A DNA stretch of 64,000 nt from assembly GCA_945861535.1 (NCBI GenBank), contig CAMAUZ010000042.1, forward strand, positions 1 to 64,000. Reading direction: 5' to 3'. Below, one piece after another: positions 7,416-44,435 of the stretch (positions are counted from its first letter, which is position 1; every line of letters starts with the position of its first letter). The DNA is from Akkermansia muciniphila (lineage in GTDB: Bacteria > Verrucomicrobiota > Verrucomicrobiia > Limisphaerales > BJHT01). The notes below the pieces were generated by a model, which did no database searches, had not been told where the DNA came from, and saw nothing but the letters and a program-made list of their open reading frames with translations. The translations under genes and the position numbers were made by a program.

Positions 7416-7631
7416 TGTTCAGCGCCAAAGGCGCGGACTTATCCCAGCCTGGGGCAACGCCCCAGGAAACGAGCCATTTGCCATGTGAGCGCTGAAAGCG
7501 CGGGCCATCGCGGGGAGGAATCATCCTTCAGCAGGAAGATGGAACGGGCTTTCAGCCCTGAATTCATTGGCTGGCATCGGACCTGGGGCGTTGCCCCAGG
7601 CTGGTATGAGCCGCGCCTTTGGCGCTAAACA
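7416..7631. repeat. Long inverted repeat with GCGCCAAAGGCGC and CCTGGGGC words
   Basis: A 216-bp compound palindrome. The left arm contains TGTTCAGCGCC-AAAGGCGC and then CAGCCTGGGGCAACGCC. The right arm contains GGGGCGTTGCCCCAGGCTGG and then CGCGCCTTTGGCGCTAAACA. The words are therefore mirrored in order and each is itself a hairpin. An inner pair (GCTGAAAGCG and CTTTCAGCCC) sits between them. There is no coding potential across 7207-7824 apart from frames opened by the repeats. Confidence 0.8.
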
Positions 7632-18958: not shown

Positions 18959-19005
18959 GCGGGGTTCGCCGCGGTTTTGCGGAGAACGGTTTTTTTGAGA
19001 AAGAA

Positions 19006-19035
19006 GCGCAAAGCGCAAAGCGCAAAGCGCAAAGC
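19006..19035. repeat. Heptamer array, four units of GCGCAAA
   Basis: Four perfect GCGCAAA units plus a partial one, downstream of the DMT transporter. This is the only perfect array in the window. Confidence 0.92.
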
Positions 19036-19106
19036 ATTAAAAGGCGGTGAGGGCGCATCGGAGTTTCTTGTAACGGTCGGTGCAGGTTGGCGCAGTCCCG
19101 CAGGCA

Positions 19107-19180
19107 CGACCGAAGATAGCCCAGCACTTGAGTGCTGGGTGTGCGGTCGGGAAACCGGAAAGTCCCGGCAGGGACGAAAG
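19107..19180. repeat. Pair of perfect small hairpins
   Basis: CCCAGCACTTGAGTGCTGGG (19120-19139) is a perfect 20-bp palindrome, and GTCCCGGCAGGGAC (19162-19175) is another. ACGACCGA and GCGGTCGG flank the first. The rest of 18959-19529 shows no recognisable gene; a weak plus-strand frame from 19273 lacks protein-like features. Confidence 0.7.
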
Positions 19181-28210: not shown

Positions 28211-28771
28211 TCAGCGCCCACCGGTGATCCCGCGCCGCCACAGGTCGAAGTGGTACAGCGCCACCACGACAAGCGAATGGCCGATGCGACCCTGCGCCAC
28301 GAGGCTCGGGATCGTTTCGACGGGCACCAGGCGCGTCACGATGTCCTCGCCGCTGTCGAACTCGACGGCGTGTTCGCGGCGGCAGTTCTGGACCAGCACG
28401 GTGTAGCAGGTGTTGGTCATGATCGCCGGGTTGGCATAGACCTGCGCGAGAATTTGCGCCGGGTCGCCGACGTAGCCGGTTTCCTCACGCAGCTCGCGCA
28501 GGCCGCCAGCCAGCGGCGAGGCGTCGGTGCGGTCAATCAGGCCGCCGGGAATCTCCAGTTCCACCGTGTTGGACCCGTGGCGGTATTGCTCGACCATCAC
28601 GAGCTCCTGATCCGGCGTCACGGCGATGACGTTCACCCAGTTGGGACAATCGAGGACGAAGAAGTCGTGCTCGCGTCCGGTGCGCGGCGAGACTTTCACG
28701 TCGCTGCGCAGGTTGAAAATGCGGAAGTCGCCGAGCGGCCGGGTGCGGATTTGCTGCCAGGGTTGGATCAT
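28211..28771 (-). CDS. NUDIX hydrolase, ADP-ribose pyrophosphatase-like
   Basis: A 186-residue protein. The NUDIX helix is 'GGLRELREETGYVG' after 'ELEIPGGLIDRTDASPLA'; the metal-binding R-E-x-x-E-E core is intact, while the first Glu of the box is an Asp and the spacing is one residue longer. The flanking 'NVIAVTPDQELVMVEQYRHG' is typical of ADP-ribose pyrophosphatases and related nucleotide-sugar hydrolases. It would cleave an X-diphosphate in the cytoplasm. The exact substrate cannot be read from sequence. Confidence 0.9.
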   Translation of the reverse strand: MIQPWQQIRTRPLGDFRIFNLRSDVKVSPRTGREHDFFVLDCPNWVNVIAVTPDQELVMVEQYRHGSNTVELEIPGGLIDRTDASPLAGGLRELREETGYVGDPAQILAQVYANPAIMTNTCYTVLVQNCRREHAVEFDSGEDIVTRLVPVETIPSLVAQGRIGHSLVVVALYHFDLWRRGITGGR

Positions 28772-28819
28772 AAAAATTCAGGTTTCTCCGGTGTTTTGCG
28801 TGGACGGGGAGGGGAAGAG

Positions 28820-28994
28820 AAAGCTCAAAGCTCAAAGATCAAAGCTCAAGGGAAGGAACCAAGCACCAAGCTTCAAATTGGAGCCTCGCGAGATTCGATG
28901 AGTGACCAGCATGGAACGCGAGGTCGATGGCGGCGGCGCTTGGAGCTTGGTATTTGGAGCTTTCTTTGAGCTTTAGGCTTTGAGCTTCGAGCTT
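28820..28994. repeat. Facing heptamer arrays (AAAGCTC and GAGCTTT) around a spacer
   Basis: Four AAAGCTC-type units at 28820-28850 and four TTTGAGC-type units at 28965-28994 face each other. Between them, ACCAAGCACCAAGCTTC (28859) and CTTGGAGCTTGGTATTTGG (28941) extend the inverted pairing. The whole could fold into one long hairpin with a spacer of about 45 bp. Confidence 0.8.
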
Positions 28995-29005
28995 CGCCCC
29001 ACTGC

Positions 29006-32402: not shown

Positions 32403-32481
32403 GGTGGCGACCCCGCCGCGTCGGCCCCTCACTCCCCCGCTCGCGTGCGACCAGGCTGGAGCTTGTGCCTTGAGCCTTCCC

Positions 32482-32509
32482 TTGAGCTTTGAGCTTTGGA
32501 CTTTGAGCT
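32482..32509. repeat. Heptamer array, four units of TTGAGCT type
   Basis: TTGAGCT, TTGAGCT, TTGGACT, TTGAGCT. It lies 86 bp before the start of the MoxR/ABC cluster. The remainder of 32112-32594 has no gene. Confidence 0.85.
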
Positions 32510-32594
32510 TTCTCCCCCACCCACTTCCTCCTTGCCCCACCGGCGCTTCTCTCGTTTCATTACTAATCCTTCATAACCAATTACCCCTCCTCCC

Positions 32595-34001: not shown

Positions 34002-34037
34002 AGGCGTACCCAAAAATCACCCGCCGCCGCAGGCGAA

Positions 34038-34184
34038 GGGGAGCGCACGCGGCCCGCGTGCCGATTTGGGCGGCCCGCCCAAATCCTCGTTCCCCCGTCG
34101 GCCTCTCCTGCCGCGCCGAAAAGTTTGTGGAACGAAGTTTTCGGCGAGCCGCCGAAAACTGCACGCCAGCGGCGTGCGCTCCCC
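34038..34184. repeat. Family A-like compound palindrome copy 2
   Basis: 147 bp: GGGGAGCGCACGCGGCCCGC, GTGCCGATTTGGGCGGCCCG at the left; GTTTTCGGCGAGCCGCCGAA and CAGCGGCGTGCGCTCCCC at the right. The hairpin words here have a GCGGCCCGC core instead of GCGCCCTCGC. It is nearly the same as the copy at 37794, 3.7 kb downstream in the same cluster. Confidence 0.85.
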
Positions 34185-34281
34185 ATTCCGTCGGGCTGCG
34201 CCCGACACCAACCTCGGCTTTCACCGCGCATCACTCTCGCGCCGTCCCCTTCCATCTTTTCCCCCACCACTCCCTCCACCC

Positions 34282-37793: not shown

Positions 37794-37939
37794 GGGGAGC
37801 GCACGCGGCCCGCGTGCTGATTTGGGCGGCCCGCCCAAATCCTCGTTCCCCGTTCTAACTTCTTCGCCGCGCGCAAACGTTGGTCCTACGAAGTTTTCGG
37901 CGGGCCGCCGAAAACTGCACGCCAGCGGCGTGCGCTCCC
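37794..37939. repeat. Family A-like compound palindrome copy 3
   Basis: 146 bp, with words GGGGAGCGCACGCGGCCCGC, ATTTGGGCGGCCCGCCCAAA, GTTTTCGGCGGGCCGCCGAA and CCAGCGGCGTGCGCTCCC in the same order as the copy at 34038. The central 50 bp differ. Confidence 0.85.
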
Positions 37940-37973: not shown

Positions 37974-38903
37974 ATGAAAGTCCGCGTCGAAAATCTCCAC
38001 AAACTCTTCGGCACCACGCCCGCCGTGGACGGCATTTCCTTCGAGTTCGATTCCGGTCATGTCTTCGGCTTCGTCGGCCCCAACGGCGCGGGCAAGACCA
38101 CGACCATGCGCATCATCGCGACGCTCGACGAACCCACCGCCGGCCACGTCTTCGTCAACGGCGTCTCCGTCGTCGAGGAACCCGAGGAAGTCCGCCGCCT
38201 CGTCGGCTACGTGCCCGATTCCCTCCCCGCGCACACGGACATCACGGTCCACGAATACCTCGATTTCTTCGGCCGCGCCTACGGACTGCGCGGCGCAAAA
38301 CTCCGCCAGGCCGTCGAGAGCGTCGAGGAATTCACCAACCTCACCGGCATCCGCGAGAAGCTCCTCCGCGCCCTCTCCAAGGGCATGAAACAGCGCGTCA
38401 CCCTCGGCCGCGCGCTCATCTACGACCCCGACGTCCTCATCCTCGACGAACCCGCCGCCGGCCTCGACCCGCGCGCCCGCGTCGAACTGCGCGAACTCCT
38501 GAACCTCCTGGCCGAGCGCAAAAAGGCCATCCTCATCAGCTCGCACATCCTCACCGAACTCAGCGAAATGTGTAACGGCGTGGTCATCATCGAGCGCGGC
38601 CGCATCCTCGAAACCGGCACCATCGACGCCCTCGTCAAAAAGCGCTCCGCCCTCCGCACCGTCACCGTCCGCGCCCTCGGCCCCTCCGCAAAACTCGTCG
38701 AAGACCTCATGCTCCTCCCCGGCGTCGAAAACGTCCGCCCCGTCGGCACCGAAGTTTATTTCGAGGTCAGCGGCGAAGACGAACAAGCCAGCGAAGTCCT
38801 CGGCCAGCTCATCGGCAAAGGCCACAAAATCGCCGAGTTCAAACAATCCCGCGCCGACCTCGAAGACATCTTCATGTCCGTCACCAAAGGAGGCGTGCAA
38901 TGA
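37974..38903 (+). CDS. ABC transporter ATP-binding protein
   Basis: A 309-residue protein. Walker A GPNGAGKT (35-42), signature 'ALSKGMKQRVTLGRALIYDP' (LSKGMKQ variant of LSGGQ, common in drug- and polymer-export ATPases), Walker B 'VLILDEPAAGLDPRARVELR', and H-loop 'ILISSHILTELSEMC'. The last 75 residues are a regulatory tail as in ABC-2 exporters ('SALRTVTVRALGPSAKLVED'). It should power the permease encoded 307 bp downstream. The substrate is unknown; the cluster context suggests an envelope component. This is the GldA/NatA/CcmA-like group. Confidence 0.94.
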   Translation: MKVRVENLHKLFGTTPAVDGISFEFDSGHVFGFVGPNGAGKTTTMRIIATLDEPTAGHVFVNGVSVVEEPEEVRRLVGYVPDSLPAHTDITVHEYLDFFGRAYGLRGAKLRQAVESVEEFTNLTGIREKLLRALSKGMKQRVTLGRALIYDPDVLILDEPAAGLDPRARVELRELLNLLAERKKAILISSHILTELSEMCNGVVIIERGRILETGTIDALVKKRSALRTVTVRALGPSAKLVEDLMLLPGVENVRPVGTEVYFEVSGEDEQASEVLGQLIGKGHKIAEFKQSRADLEDIFMSVTKGGVQ

Positions 38904-38992
38904 ATCGCCCCCGTAGCCGCCGACGTAAGGAGGCGGATCGTCCGCCGCGTGCAAACAATCTCCCGGCAACCTCACCCCCGAATTCCGAACGG

Positions 38993-39171
38993 AACGCTCA
39001 ACGTTCAACGTTCAACGCTCAACGCTCAAAGTTGAGCCCTCGGCCTTCCACGTTCCCCTCCCATTTCCCCGCTCCCGCGGCGCCCACCTCCCCGGCCCCG
39101 TATTCGACCGAAAACGTCCACCGCTCAACTTCCCCCTTTGAGAGTTCAACGTTGAACGTTGAACGTTGGAC
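38993..39171. repeat. Facing heptamer arrays (AACGTTC/AACGCTC and GTTGAAC) before the ABC permease
   Basis: Six units at 38993-39034 (AACGCTC, AACGTTC twice, AACGCTC twice, AAAGTTG) and four at 39144-39171 (GTTCAAC, GTTGAAC twice, GTTGGAC). They are complementary and could fold on each other. A family G single arm (GTAGCCGCCGACGTAAGGAG) lies at 38912-38931. No gene in 38904-39210. Confidence 0.82.
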
Positions 39172-39210
39172 GTTCCCCTCCTTTCCCCCACTCCCAACCC
39201 TCCCCCACCC

Positions 39211-40767
39211 ATGACCGGCCCCCGCTCCCCCATCCTCCTCCCGCGCTGGGACCTCAACCCCGTCGTCGTCAAAGAACTCCGCCAGGCCGTGCGCAACTGG
39301 TTCGTCATCGGCGTCCTGCTCCTCCTGCTGCTGATCCTCTTCGTCGCGATGGTCATGTACGTGATCACCGAAAGCATCGGCGCGACCGCCAACCCCACGC
39401 TCGGCCGCAGCGTCTTTCAGCTCTTCTTCGGCATCCTGTCGGTCGGCAGCATGATCTTCATTCCCGGCTACACCGGCACGCGTTTCGCCAAGGAACGCGA
39501 AGATGCCAACGTGGACCTGATGTTCATCACCACGCTCACCCCAGGCCAGATCATCCGCGGCAAAATTCTCTGCGGCGTCATCCTCACCGGCCTGTTCTTC
39601 AGCGTGTTCATGCCGTTCATGGCGTTCACCTACCTCCTGCGCGGCATCGACCTGCCGTCCATCTTTATCGTGCTCGTGATGAACTTCATCACGGTGACCG
39701 CGATGATTCACCTCGCCGTTTTTCTCGCCAGCCTGCCCGTCAGCCGCAACTTCAAGATCGGCATCACCGCCGGCACGTTCTTCCTCGGCGTCAGTTGGAT
39801 CGGTGGCCTGACCTTCGGCGCATTCGAGATGATCAACCGGGGCGTCGGCAGCCGGCTCGGCTCGTGGGATTTCTGGGGACCGGCCCTGACCTTCCTCGTC
39901 GCGGCGGCGCTCGTCATGCGCGTCCTCTACATCGCCGCCGTGGCGTTAATCACCGCGCCCTCCGCAAATCGCGCGCTGCCCGTGCGGGTGAACACGACGA
40001 TTTGTTTTCTGGTCGCGGCGGTCATTCCGCTGTTGTGGGAATACTTCGGCGGCGGCTCCGGCTCGGGAATCACGGAAAAAGTCTCGGCCATCTTCGGCCT
40101 GCCGCTGCTGGCCGTGTGCCTGATCGTCTGCGTCAGCTCGCACGACAAACTCAGCCTCCGCATCCGGCGCACGATTCCCATCACGCCGTTCAAGCGCGCG
40201 GTGGCGTTTGTCTTCTATAGCGGCGCGGCGGGCGGCCTCGTCTGGTGCGCGCTGCTGGCGGTCTGCACGCTTACCCTGGGCTTTCTTTCGTTTGGCGGGG
40301 CGGGCGGCGGCTGGCTGGGCTTCGGGAGAAAAACCAGCTACGCCATGACGTCGGGCGCCAGCGACTGGCTCGTCTTCGCGAGCATCATCGCCTACTTCTT
40401 CGCCTACGCGCTCACCGGCCTGTACCTCCACCGCCGCTTCTGGTCCACCCGCCCGCCCAAGCTCGCGGGCATCGCCGCGATCATCGTGCCGCTGCTGTTC
40501 GGGGTAATACCCACGCTCGTCCTGTTTTTCCTGAACCGCTTCACCAGCACCGCGCTTGATCAGTTCTTGCCGGGAAACATTTTCAACCTGTTCGTCCAAA
40601 ACGGAGCCAACGCGCCGATGCACATCATGGTGGCCGCCGCCTGGCTGATCGTGATGATTATCCTCAACGCCCCCTGGTTCTTCCGCCAATTCGCCGCGTT
40701 CAAAAATTATCTCCCCGCCGGGGAAAAAGCCGCCGATGGATCCACGCTTCCGCCCATCATTGATTGA
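39211..40767 (+). CDS. ABC-2 type permease of the MoxR/ABC cluster
   Basis: A 518-residue membrane protein with about twelve hydrophobic helices. The N-terminus 'RWDLNPVVVKELRQAVRNWF' followed by a helix is the usual opening of ABC-2 permeases ('NPVxxKELRxxxR'). The segment 'RFAKEREDANVDLMFITTLT', then 'PGQIIRGKILCGVILTGLFF', is the cytoplasmic coupling region. It pairs with the ATPase encoded upstream. The gene's last 32 bp overlap the start of the DUF58 gene, which ties transport and the DUF58/vWA proteins together translationally. The start is the ATG at 39211; an ATG at 39166 in frame gives a Pro-rich extension. Confidence 0.88.
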   Translation: MTGPRSPILLPRWDLNPVVVKELRQAVRNWFVIGVLLLLLLILFVAMVMYVITESIGATANPTLGRSVFQLFFGILSVGSMIFIPGYTGTRFAKEREDANVDLMFITTLTPGQIIRGKILCGVILTGLFFSVFMPFMAFTYLLRGIDLPSIFIVLVMNFITVTAMIHLAVFLASLPVSRNFKIGITAGTFFLGVSWIGGLTFGAFEMINRGVGSRLGSWDFWGPALTFLVAAALVMRVLYIAAVALITAPSANRALPVRVNTTICFLVAAVIPLLWEYFGGGSGSGITEKVSAIFGLPLLAVCLIVCVSSHDKLSLRIRRTIPITPFKRAVAFVFYSGAAGGLVWCALLAVCTLTLGFLSFGGAGGGWLGFGRKTSYAMTSGASDWLVFASIIAYFFAYALTGLYLHRRFWSTRPPKLAGIAAIIVPLLFGVIPTLVLFFLNRFTSTALDQFLPGNIFNLFVQNGANAPMHIMVAAAWLIVMIILNAPWFFRQFAAFKNYLPAGEKAADGSTLPPIID

Positions 40768-44187: not shown

Positions 44188-44192
44188 CAGGA

Positions 44193-44300
44193 AACCACTG
44201 ACCGGCACTAACCGGCACTAATAAAACCCATCAAACCAGCCCGGCGGAGCGAAGACGGGCCGGGTCTCTGATTAGTACGAGTTAGTGCCGGTTAGTGGTT
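44193..44300. repeat. Inverted repeat of the CACTAACCGGCACTAA word
   Basis: AACCACTGACCGGCACTAAC-CGGCACTAAT at the left and GATTAGTACGAGTTAGTGCC-GGTTAGTGGTT at the right. The middle has GCCCGGCGGAG...ACGGGCCGGG. It follows the toxin gene and may end its transcript. The rest of 44188-44435 has no gene. Confidence 0.8.
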
Positions 44301-44435
44301 TTAATTTCTTCGTGGATCAACAATCGCCGGATAGCGGTTCAATCCCCGCTTTACGGCTTTCCCTTCTGCTCCACCCACGCGGCTCTCGCGGAACGGGTTA
44401 GAGCCTTCTCACGTCGGGTCCTACAAAGCTGCCCT

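Follow-up and report, generated by a model that had tools for sequence, protein, structure and literature searches.

Do the two heptamer arrays that face each other at 28820 to 28994 of the window belong to a long hairpin that spreads as a unit, or do the arms matter in their own right? The window is the whole stretch of 64,000 nucleotides that was analyzed, a part of contig 42 of a 7.94-Mb genome in 169 contigs (G000). An earlier note on this DNA had described an AAAGCTC array at 28820 opposed to a TTTGAGC array at 28965, with complementary sequence between them, and an AACGTTC array at 38993 opposed to a GTTGAAC array at 39144; both pairs are real and lie at those positions. The left array of the first element (28820 to 28849, plus strand) reads AAAGCTC, AAAGCTC, AAAGATC, AAAGCTC, and AA, and is followed on the same strand by a GGGAAG core (28850 to 28855, found in the sequence and by matrix scan) and by inner heptads of the CAAGNNC type (28860 to 28875, read from the sequence). 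The middle of the loop (28876 to 28937) is assigned no strand. On the minus strand follow the inner part of the right arm (28938 to 28963), whose degenerate core has CTTTC where TTCCC is usual, and the right array (28964 to 28994, array scan). The opposed arrays form 35-nt ungapped arms with 83% complementarity, and inside them CAAGCACCAAGCTT (28860 to 28873) is complementary to GCTTGGAGCTTGGTATTT (28938 to 28955), with CAAG/CTTGG stretches. A NUDIX-domain gene (28211 to 28771, minus strand) has its predicted start about 48 bp from the element.

The second element consists of AACGYTC heptads at 38993 to 39033 (plus strand) and an opposed array at 39143 to 39175 (minus strand), both located by array scan, and its ungapped arms of 41 nt are 88% complementary. 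An ABC transporter ATP-binding gene (37974 to 38903, plus strand) lies upstream, and the following predicted gene begins at 39211. Folding of both stretches as DNA, which the note had proposed, shows them to be far more stable than their dinucleotide shuffles: 28810 to 29000 gave −50.3 kcal/mol, where its shuffles averaged −29.0 (z = −6.95), and 38985 to 39180 gave −44.0 kcal/mol against −21.2 (z = −7.50), values equalled by none of 200 shuffles in either case. The window also contains two lone AAAGCTC arms, both on the minus strand. One (2090 to 2147) carries an array of about six heptads (2103 to 2146) for which no partner was found within 400 bp; the other (32469 to 32512) corresponds to two facing arms in the sister species, homology stopping where the arm ends on its inner side. 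Elsewhere in the window are an AAGCGCA heptamer array of 4.6 perfect units (19004 to 19035), with no opposed array found nearby, and decamer arrays of the AACCGGCACT type placed as inverted arms (44192 to 44301).

Facing pairs were counted in 1.264 Mb of G000 (the window together with 1.2 Mb from contigs 1 to 8, or 16% of the genome) and in 1.164 Mb of a sister species of the same genus (G001). A plain heptamer scan of G000 retrieved 79 AAAGCTC-like arrays, of which at least 6 are other heptamers picked up as cross-hits. Among the 79 are 23 pairs that face each other within 250 bp; one of these pairs (C8 10838/10863) is an AACGTTC cross-hit that was kept in these counts and omitted from one listing of pair anatomy. 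The same scan of the sister species gave 86 arrays and 25 facing pairs. Because random intergenic placement of 79 arrays yielded a mean of only 1.04 facing pairs and a maximum of 5 in 1,000 trials, arrays face each other within 250 bp well beyond the chance level, the opposite of the outcome that the note had named as refuting its proposal. Close neighbors are opposed in 23 of 25 cases in G000 and 25 of 28 in G001 and diverge in none (P = 2.5e-12 and 1.3e-12 against one quarter). A matrix scan for the arm found 78 matches in the G000 sample, a register shift causing two loci to be matched twice; one simulated sequence gave no match. Within 450 bp, 23 neighbors were facing, 4 and 1 stood in the two tandem orders, and none diverged. 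The facing-pair rule holds for AAAGCTC, with facing pairs making up 23 of its 48 clusters.

The arm presents, from outside to inside, a purine-rich flank, AAGCTC, a variable NAAGNNY heptad, two AAAGCTC heptads, AAGGGAAG, and CAAGNNC heptads. A complete element is composed of about four heptads, an AAGGGAA core, CAAGNNC heptads, a loop of approximately 130 nt, and then the mirror image of these parts. The purine-rich outer flank was left out of the element, since stretches ahead of starts are C-rich in this genome even without arrays. Sixty arms were aligned by anchoring on GGGAA, so the invariance of GGGAA among them is by construction. Four heptads are present in 58 of 73 AAAGCTC arrays in G000 (79%) and in 69 of 78 in G001 (88%). 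Measured from array to array, pairs span 106 to 366 bp, with 21 of 23 falling between 152 and 221 bp, and the loop is 96 to 167 nt long in 38 of 50 elements. Other repeats share this layout to different degrees. AACGYTC arrays have 4 to 6 units in 18 of 23 cases (the nine in G000 range from 5 to 16) and are opposed in 3 of 6 G000 clusters, ATTAGTR arrays are opposed in only 3 of 15, and the decamer AACCGGCACT with its variants accounts for 9 of 10 inverted neighbor pairs of period 10 in G000 and 4 of 4 in G001, a count from which GC-rich units were omitted. With multiples of three set aside, 7 is the commonest array period between 4 and 13 (69 arrays); periods 4, 5, 8, 10, 11, and 13 are represented by 5, 2, 13, 40, 0, and 4 arrays.

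The elements are intergenic. Relative to genes predicted with our own gene caller, which is not an annotation, overlap was found in 2 of the 50 pairs or single arms that have predicted genes on both sides. Of 22 pairs, 11 lie between co-directional, 7 between convergent, and 4 between divergent genes, and convergent spacers make up 112 of 722 intergenic regions overall. The outer ends stand a median of 19 to 24 nt past stops and 87 to 89 nt ahead of starts, the longer distance to starts being expected if insertion into promoters is badly tolerated. Single AAAGCTC arms are oriented with respect to genes: in 23 of 27, the end closer to a gene is the outer one. ATTAGTR single arrays (e.g., C3 52403), which read ACTAATY towards the gene, lie a median of 17.5 nt upstream of predicted starts (n = 10).

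The proposal that a long hairpin is the unit of spread stands only in part. Pairing is common (23 of 48 clusters) and pair size is tight, and some lone arms may be the remains of pairs; copying of the hairpin in its present form finds no support in the loops or in the match between arms. Arms average 82% identity between elements, whereas the loops of 50 elements are unrelated, with 7 of 1,225 loop pairs alike. Four of these seven are orthologous, and the other three join C1 670, whose loop contains a nested palindrome, g1C18 10018, and g1C9 50509. ERIC-like palindromes have a conserved central sequence, unlike the AAAGCTC elements. A stem kept as a structure should have arms that match better within elements than between them, and this is not seen in 51 elements, orthologues included: in nine of ten segments, the left and right arms of one element are just as alike as arms taken from different elements. 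The exception is heptad 2, which is identical in 11 of 51 elements against 4.8 expected (its segment identity was reached in 36 of 2,000 permutations), and the gapped left-right score of the inner 60 nt is marginal (z = 2.0). Apart from these two signals, no compensatory pairing between arms was found over the 51 elements. Chimeras with swapped arms, made from 22 elements, fold as RNA with −96.8 to −98.8 kcal/mol, compared with −97.8 for the real elements. Maintenance of the hairpin by selection was thus rejected on the covariation and chimera tests, bar heptad 2 and the marginal inner score. Given the arm matching, the chimera folds, and the unrelated loops, it is the arms, and not the loops or the hairpin, that carry the conservation.

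Comparison with the sister species shows that elements persist at orthologous sites. Five loci are paired in both genomes (W 28819, C7 82051, C8 51134, C6 22731, and C2 109553); at the first element, the 106 nt that separate its two 36-nt arm blocks share 82% identity with the sister species, and its loop is unrelated to those of non-orthologous elements. Over four orthologous pairs, arms are identical at 264 of 288 positions and loops at 389 of 462 aligned positions (503 columns), while the outer 40-nt flanks are worst, with 214 of 389 columns identical; C1 670 versus g1C18 was excluded from these sums because the flanks do not align. Loop and outer flank therefore diverge faster than the arms. 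Other pairs differ between the two genomes: the C4 7210 pair has one arm only in G001, the C3 107404 and C5 95767 pairs lie at synteny breaks and have no arm there, the flanks of the C3 155415 and C1 116076 pairs are rearranged, one side bearing an arm or pair, and the C3 153796 pair is absent, a different inverted repeat occupying the same convergent spacer (alignment read by eye).

The view that lone arrays can be what remains of hairpins is supported by 4 of the 11 single-arm loci whose flank was found in G001, where they are pairs (C1 104701, C2 68296, C2 142824, and the window arm at 32469; at C2 68296 the partner is 414 bp off, with a dispersed repeat in between). One locus is single in both genomes (C7 88384), and six have no arm at the matching site in G001 (C1 101805, C2 187322, C3 19127, C5 59697, C8 28891, and C8 52301). 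A position-specific scan of approximately 400 bp on the inner side of single arms retrieved no second arm even at score 0, with the exception of one tandem cluster on C4. Arms are also associated with synteny breaks, since 12 of 66 block ends (39 blocks, 201 kb) fall within 150 bp of an arm against 3.0 expected, a number reached in none of 2,000 draws. G001 also has an arm at 5 of these 12 ends and none at 7, so not every break is a recombination of element on element, and breaks at repeats in draft assemblies may in part be assembly errors. No target-site duplication was found in 49 elements, since words shared by the two flanks did not exceed in length those of permuted flanks; in old insertions such a duplication could have disappeared.

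An IS3-like element, identified by Pfam rve and HTH_Tnp_1 matches, is joined to the arms. All three of its left ends found in G000 (C3, C112, and C167) join different AAAGCTC arms at one identical position, a few nucleotides inside the arm core. To the right of the element comes an opposed arm, no more than about 75 nt away in C3 and C64 and about 440 nt away in C156. The chance of three of three being joined to arms is approximately 1.6e-9 by simple area, with copies treated as independent. The search scored 40 of 443 candidates, so further copies may exist; no copy was seen in the sampled G001. Because the arms differ while the IS letters shown agree, the arm is most likely the target of this element, although the left arm could have been carried along with it despite the differences between arms. 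No autonomous partner sharing the arm ends was seen in the sampled DNA, and the IS3-like element has its own ends. One wide facing pair (C3 110252/111880) was inspected as a candidate longer, autonomous version and proved to be a single element interrupted by an IS3-like insertion. At locus L049 (10254 to 11921) the IS3-like element lies within an AAAGCTC element, and two further left ends, at L378 and L379, meet different arms at that same point.

In the genomes searched, the arm sequence is confined to a narrow group. The exact 21-mer AAAGCTCAAAGCTCAAGGGAA occurs in 211 copies in G000 and 209 in G001, and 4 of 97 relatives searched, G000 included, are positive, the other two with 3 copies and 1; it is absent from 93 of the 95 relatives other than G000 and G001. 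Across the phylum it was found in 1 of 387 genomes, which is G000 itself. Genome G097 has 138 copies of a core-bearing 15-mer, many in same-direction clusters among the matches listed, and a nested facing cluster with three forward and then three reverse core-bearing arrays is present on its contig C7 (119307 to 119858). Bare AAAGCTC, as 2.5 units, is found in many phyla, in at least 115 stretches. Of 115 such loci from other contigs, at least 5 come from the sister assembly. After those near a locus end were split off, 76 of the remaining 97 have no partner within 300 bp, and the neighbors of the rest are 7 facing, 6 diverging, and 8 in the same direction; within 400 bp, neighbors on other contigs are 11 facing, 10 diverging, and 15 in the same direction. 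Since AAAGCTC elsewhere is mostly alone and without orientation preference, the facing layout is a property of this genus and not of AAAGCTC everywhere.

The AAAGCTC pairs are probably an old, dispersed, noncoding, MITE-like intergenic family of about 150 to 220 bp, with ends formed by approximately four heptads and AAGGGAA. They share with MITEs their short length, terminal inverted repeats, and lack of a gene inside, and they lack an internal sequence common to copies. The arms would be double-stranded recognition ends, a transposase or another DNA-binding protein reading the heptad ladder. The element would have spread in the ancestor of the genus, its loop drifting afterwards; the hairpin potential would be a by-product of having the same end sequence twice, and single arms would be halves left after deletion or rearrangement. 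Loops that are unrelated between copies are unlike a recent MITE and would also fit arms placed around pre-existing spacers. Some of the same features could be expected of putative sites for a chromosome-organizing or regulatory protein, of the sort proposed for paired heptanucleotides in Geobacter metallireducens, selected at gene edges and not spreading, an explanation that we regard as rather unlikely. It agrees with the fixed four-heptad arms, conserved above loop and outer flank in the four orthologous pairs, with the gene-facing outer ends of single arms, and with the ATTAGTR arrays close to predicted starts, but not with the turnover between sister species, the flanking of starts and stops alike, or the limitation of exact AAAGCTCAAAGCTCAAGGGAA to this genus and a few others among the genomes searched. 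Selection on a transcribed stem that terminates transcription or protects mRNA ends appears still less likely. The folds are very stable, outer ends lie close behind stops, convergent genes surround 7 of 22 pairs, and the sister species has a different inverted repeat in the C3 153796 spacer; yet divergent genes flank 4 of 22 pairs, single arms occur intact, arms match no better within than between elements in nine of ten segments, and chimeras fold equally well.

Growth of simple-sequence repeats by replication slippage, with inverted copies made by template switching, is improbable. Seven is indeed the commonest array period, and the AACGYTC arrays of G000 vary widely in unit number, but slippage is disfavored by AAAGCTC arrays that are mostly of four units next to a nonrepeat core, by their fixed polarity, and by the recurrence of one arm sequence in dozens of places. 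REP or BIME elements mobilized by a Y1 (RAYT) transposase would likewise be inverted, intergenic, and present in hundreds of copies, and the genome has nine Y1 matches; this is nevertheless the least credible reading, because no array of AAAGCTC, AACGYTC, or ATTAGTR lies within approximately 1.5 kb of any of the nine and other palindromes flank several of them. A RAYT partner for the heptad arms was rejected on this count; L192 has one 12-nt CAAGCAC match. Nor did the suggestion that arrays and palindrome families share an origin find support, as their sequences differ and no array is near the nine Y1 loci.

Y1 matches at L192, L193, L194, L198, and L200 have several palindromes alongside, as in REP/RAYT pairs. 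A palindrome family of 150 to 180 bp (window 34022 to 34200 and 37795 to 37939) has dozens of matches in the sister genome at 84 to 90% identity and is far less diverged than the heptad elements. An RNA family for the arrays was not found: Rfam retrieved only two Acido-Lenti-1 matches in the window, at 7582 to 7626 (plus strand) and 19094 to 19139 (minus strand), both off the arrays, and nothing at gathering score in seven other 20-kb stretches. As these two stretches recur at 13 and 15 places in 1.26 Mb (BLAST), the candidate RNA Acido-Lenti-1 here looks like part of a dispersed repeat.

IS1397 is an IS3-family case of insertion into REP. REP sequences are targets of insertion sequences (PMC1525189). 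REPs are palindromes of 20 to 40 bp, many with GTAG or CGTC tags (PMC3733652), and the AAAGCTC elements resemble them as palindromic intergenic repeats that probably serve as an insertion point, with arms built from heptads instead. The closest likeness is to the GGGAATC heptamers of Xanthomonas, which are mostly of four units, mostly intergenic, and on average 28 nt from the nearer open reading frame (ORF), with 70 and 75 cases of two close convergent arrays (Rehm et al. 2015, PMC4692102). In most cases two sister species carry them between the same genes, and they have no known function. Their units contain G-tracts and form quadruplexes in vitro, a property that the authors link to the predominance of four units (PMC4692102). 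AAAGCTC arrays are likewise mostly of four units, in convergent pairs, and intergenic near an ORF. They differ in having one G per unit and no G-tracts, and also in their nonrepeat core and inner CAAGNNC heptads. Since AAAGCTC has no G-tracts, quadruplex formation is not the general reason for the four-unit layout.

Paired heptanucleotides are also known from Geobacter metallireducens, where fifteen class 3 sites have five tandem copies (MTYCTGA), and the site classes are mostly paired and were proposed as possible IHF/HU sites (PMC2700814); sequence and phylum differ from those of AAAGCTC. The TAACTGA arrays of Beggiatoaceae are intergenic direct repeats of two to six units, many just 5′ of start codons, with one inverted case in the genome described (PMC4679880), and these resemble the ACTAATY (ATTAGTR) arrays found here ahead of starts. 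In the tRNALeu intron of Nostoc, heptad repeats of the P6b stem pair with each other as the present arms do, at one RNA locus and not as a dispersed DNA family (PMC4476775). No mention of the AAAGCTC repeat letters or the derived peptide was found in print in open-licence PubMed Central. AAAGCTC is a new sequence family of a kind already known, from Xanthomonas, and unexplained.

The genus thus provides a second, unrelated lineage with the four-unit convergent layout, for which G-tracts are not needed. Short tandem arrays as inverted ends might be a general, sequence-independent architecture in which a protein would read a ladder of approximately four repeats at each end, a suggestion made tentatively. 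It would take in AAAGCTC, AACGYTC, sometimes ATTAGTR, and the AACCGGCACT decamer in this genus, and GGGAATC in Xanthomonas. Heptamer arrays are over-represented in many bacteria, with no known cause (PMC4692102). If the architecture is general, the facing layout of few units would reflect a mobile or recombining unit instead of quadruplexes or hairpins, and heptad arrays in many phyla would be the ends or half-ends of such units. The pair of sister species with arms at synteny breaks makes the origin and turnover of these elements directly testable.
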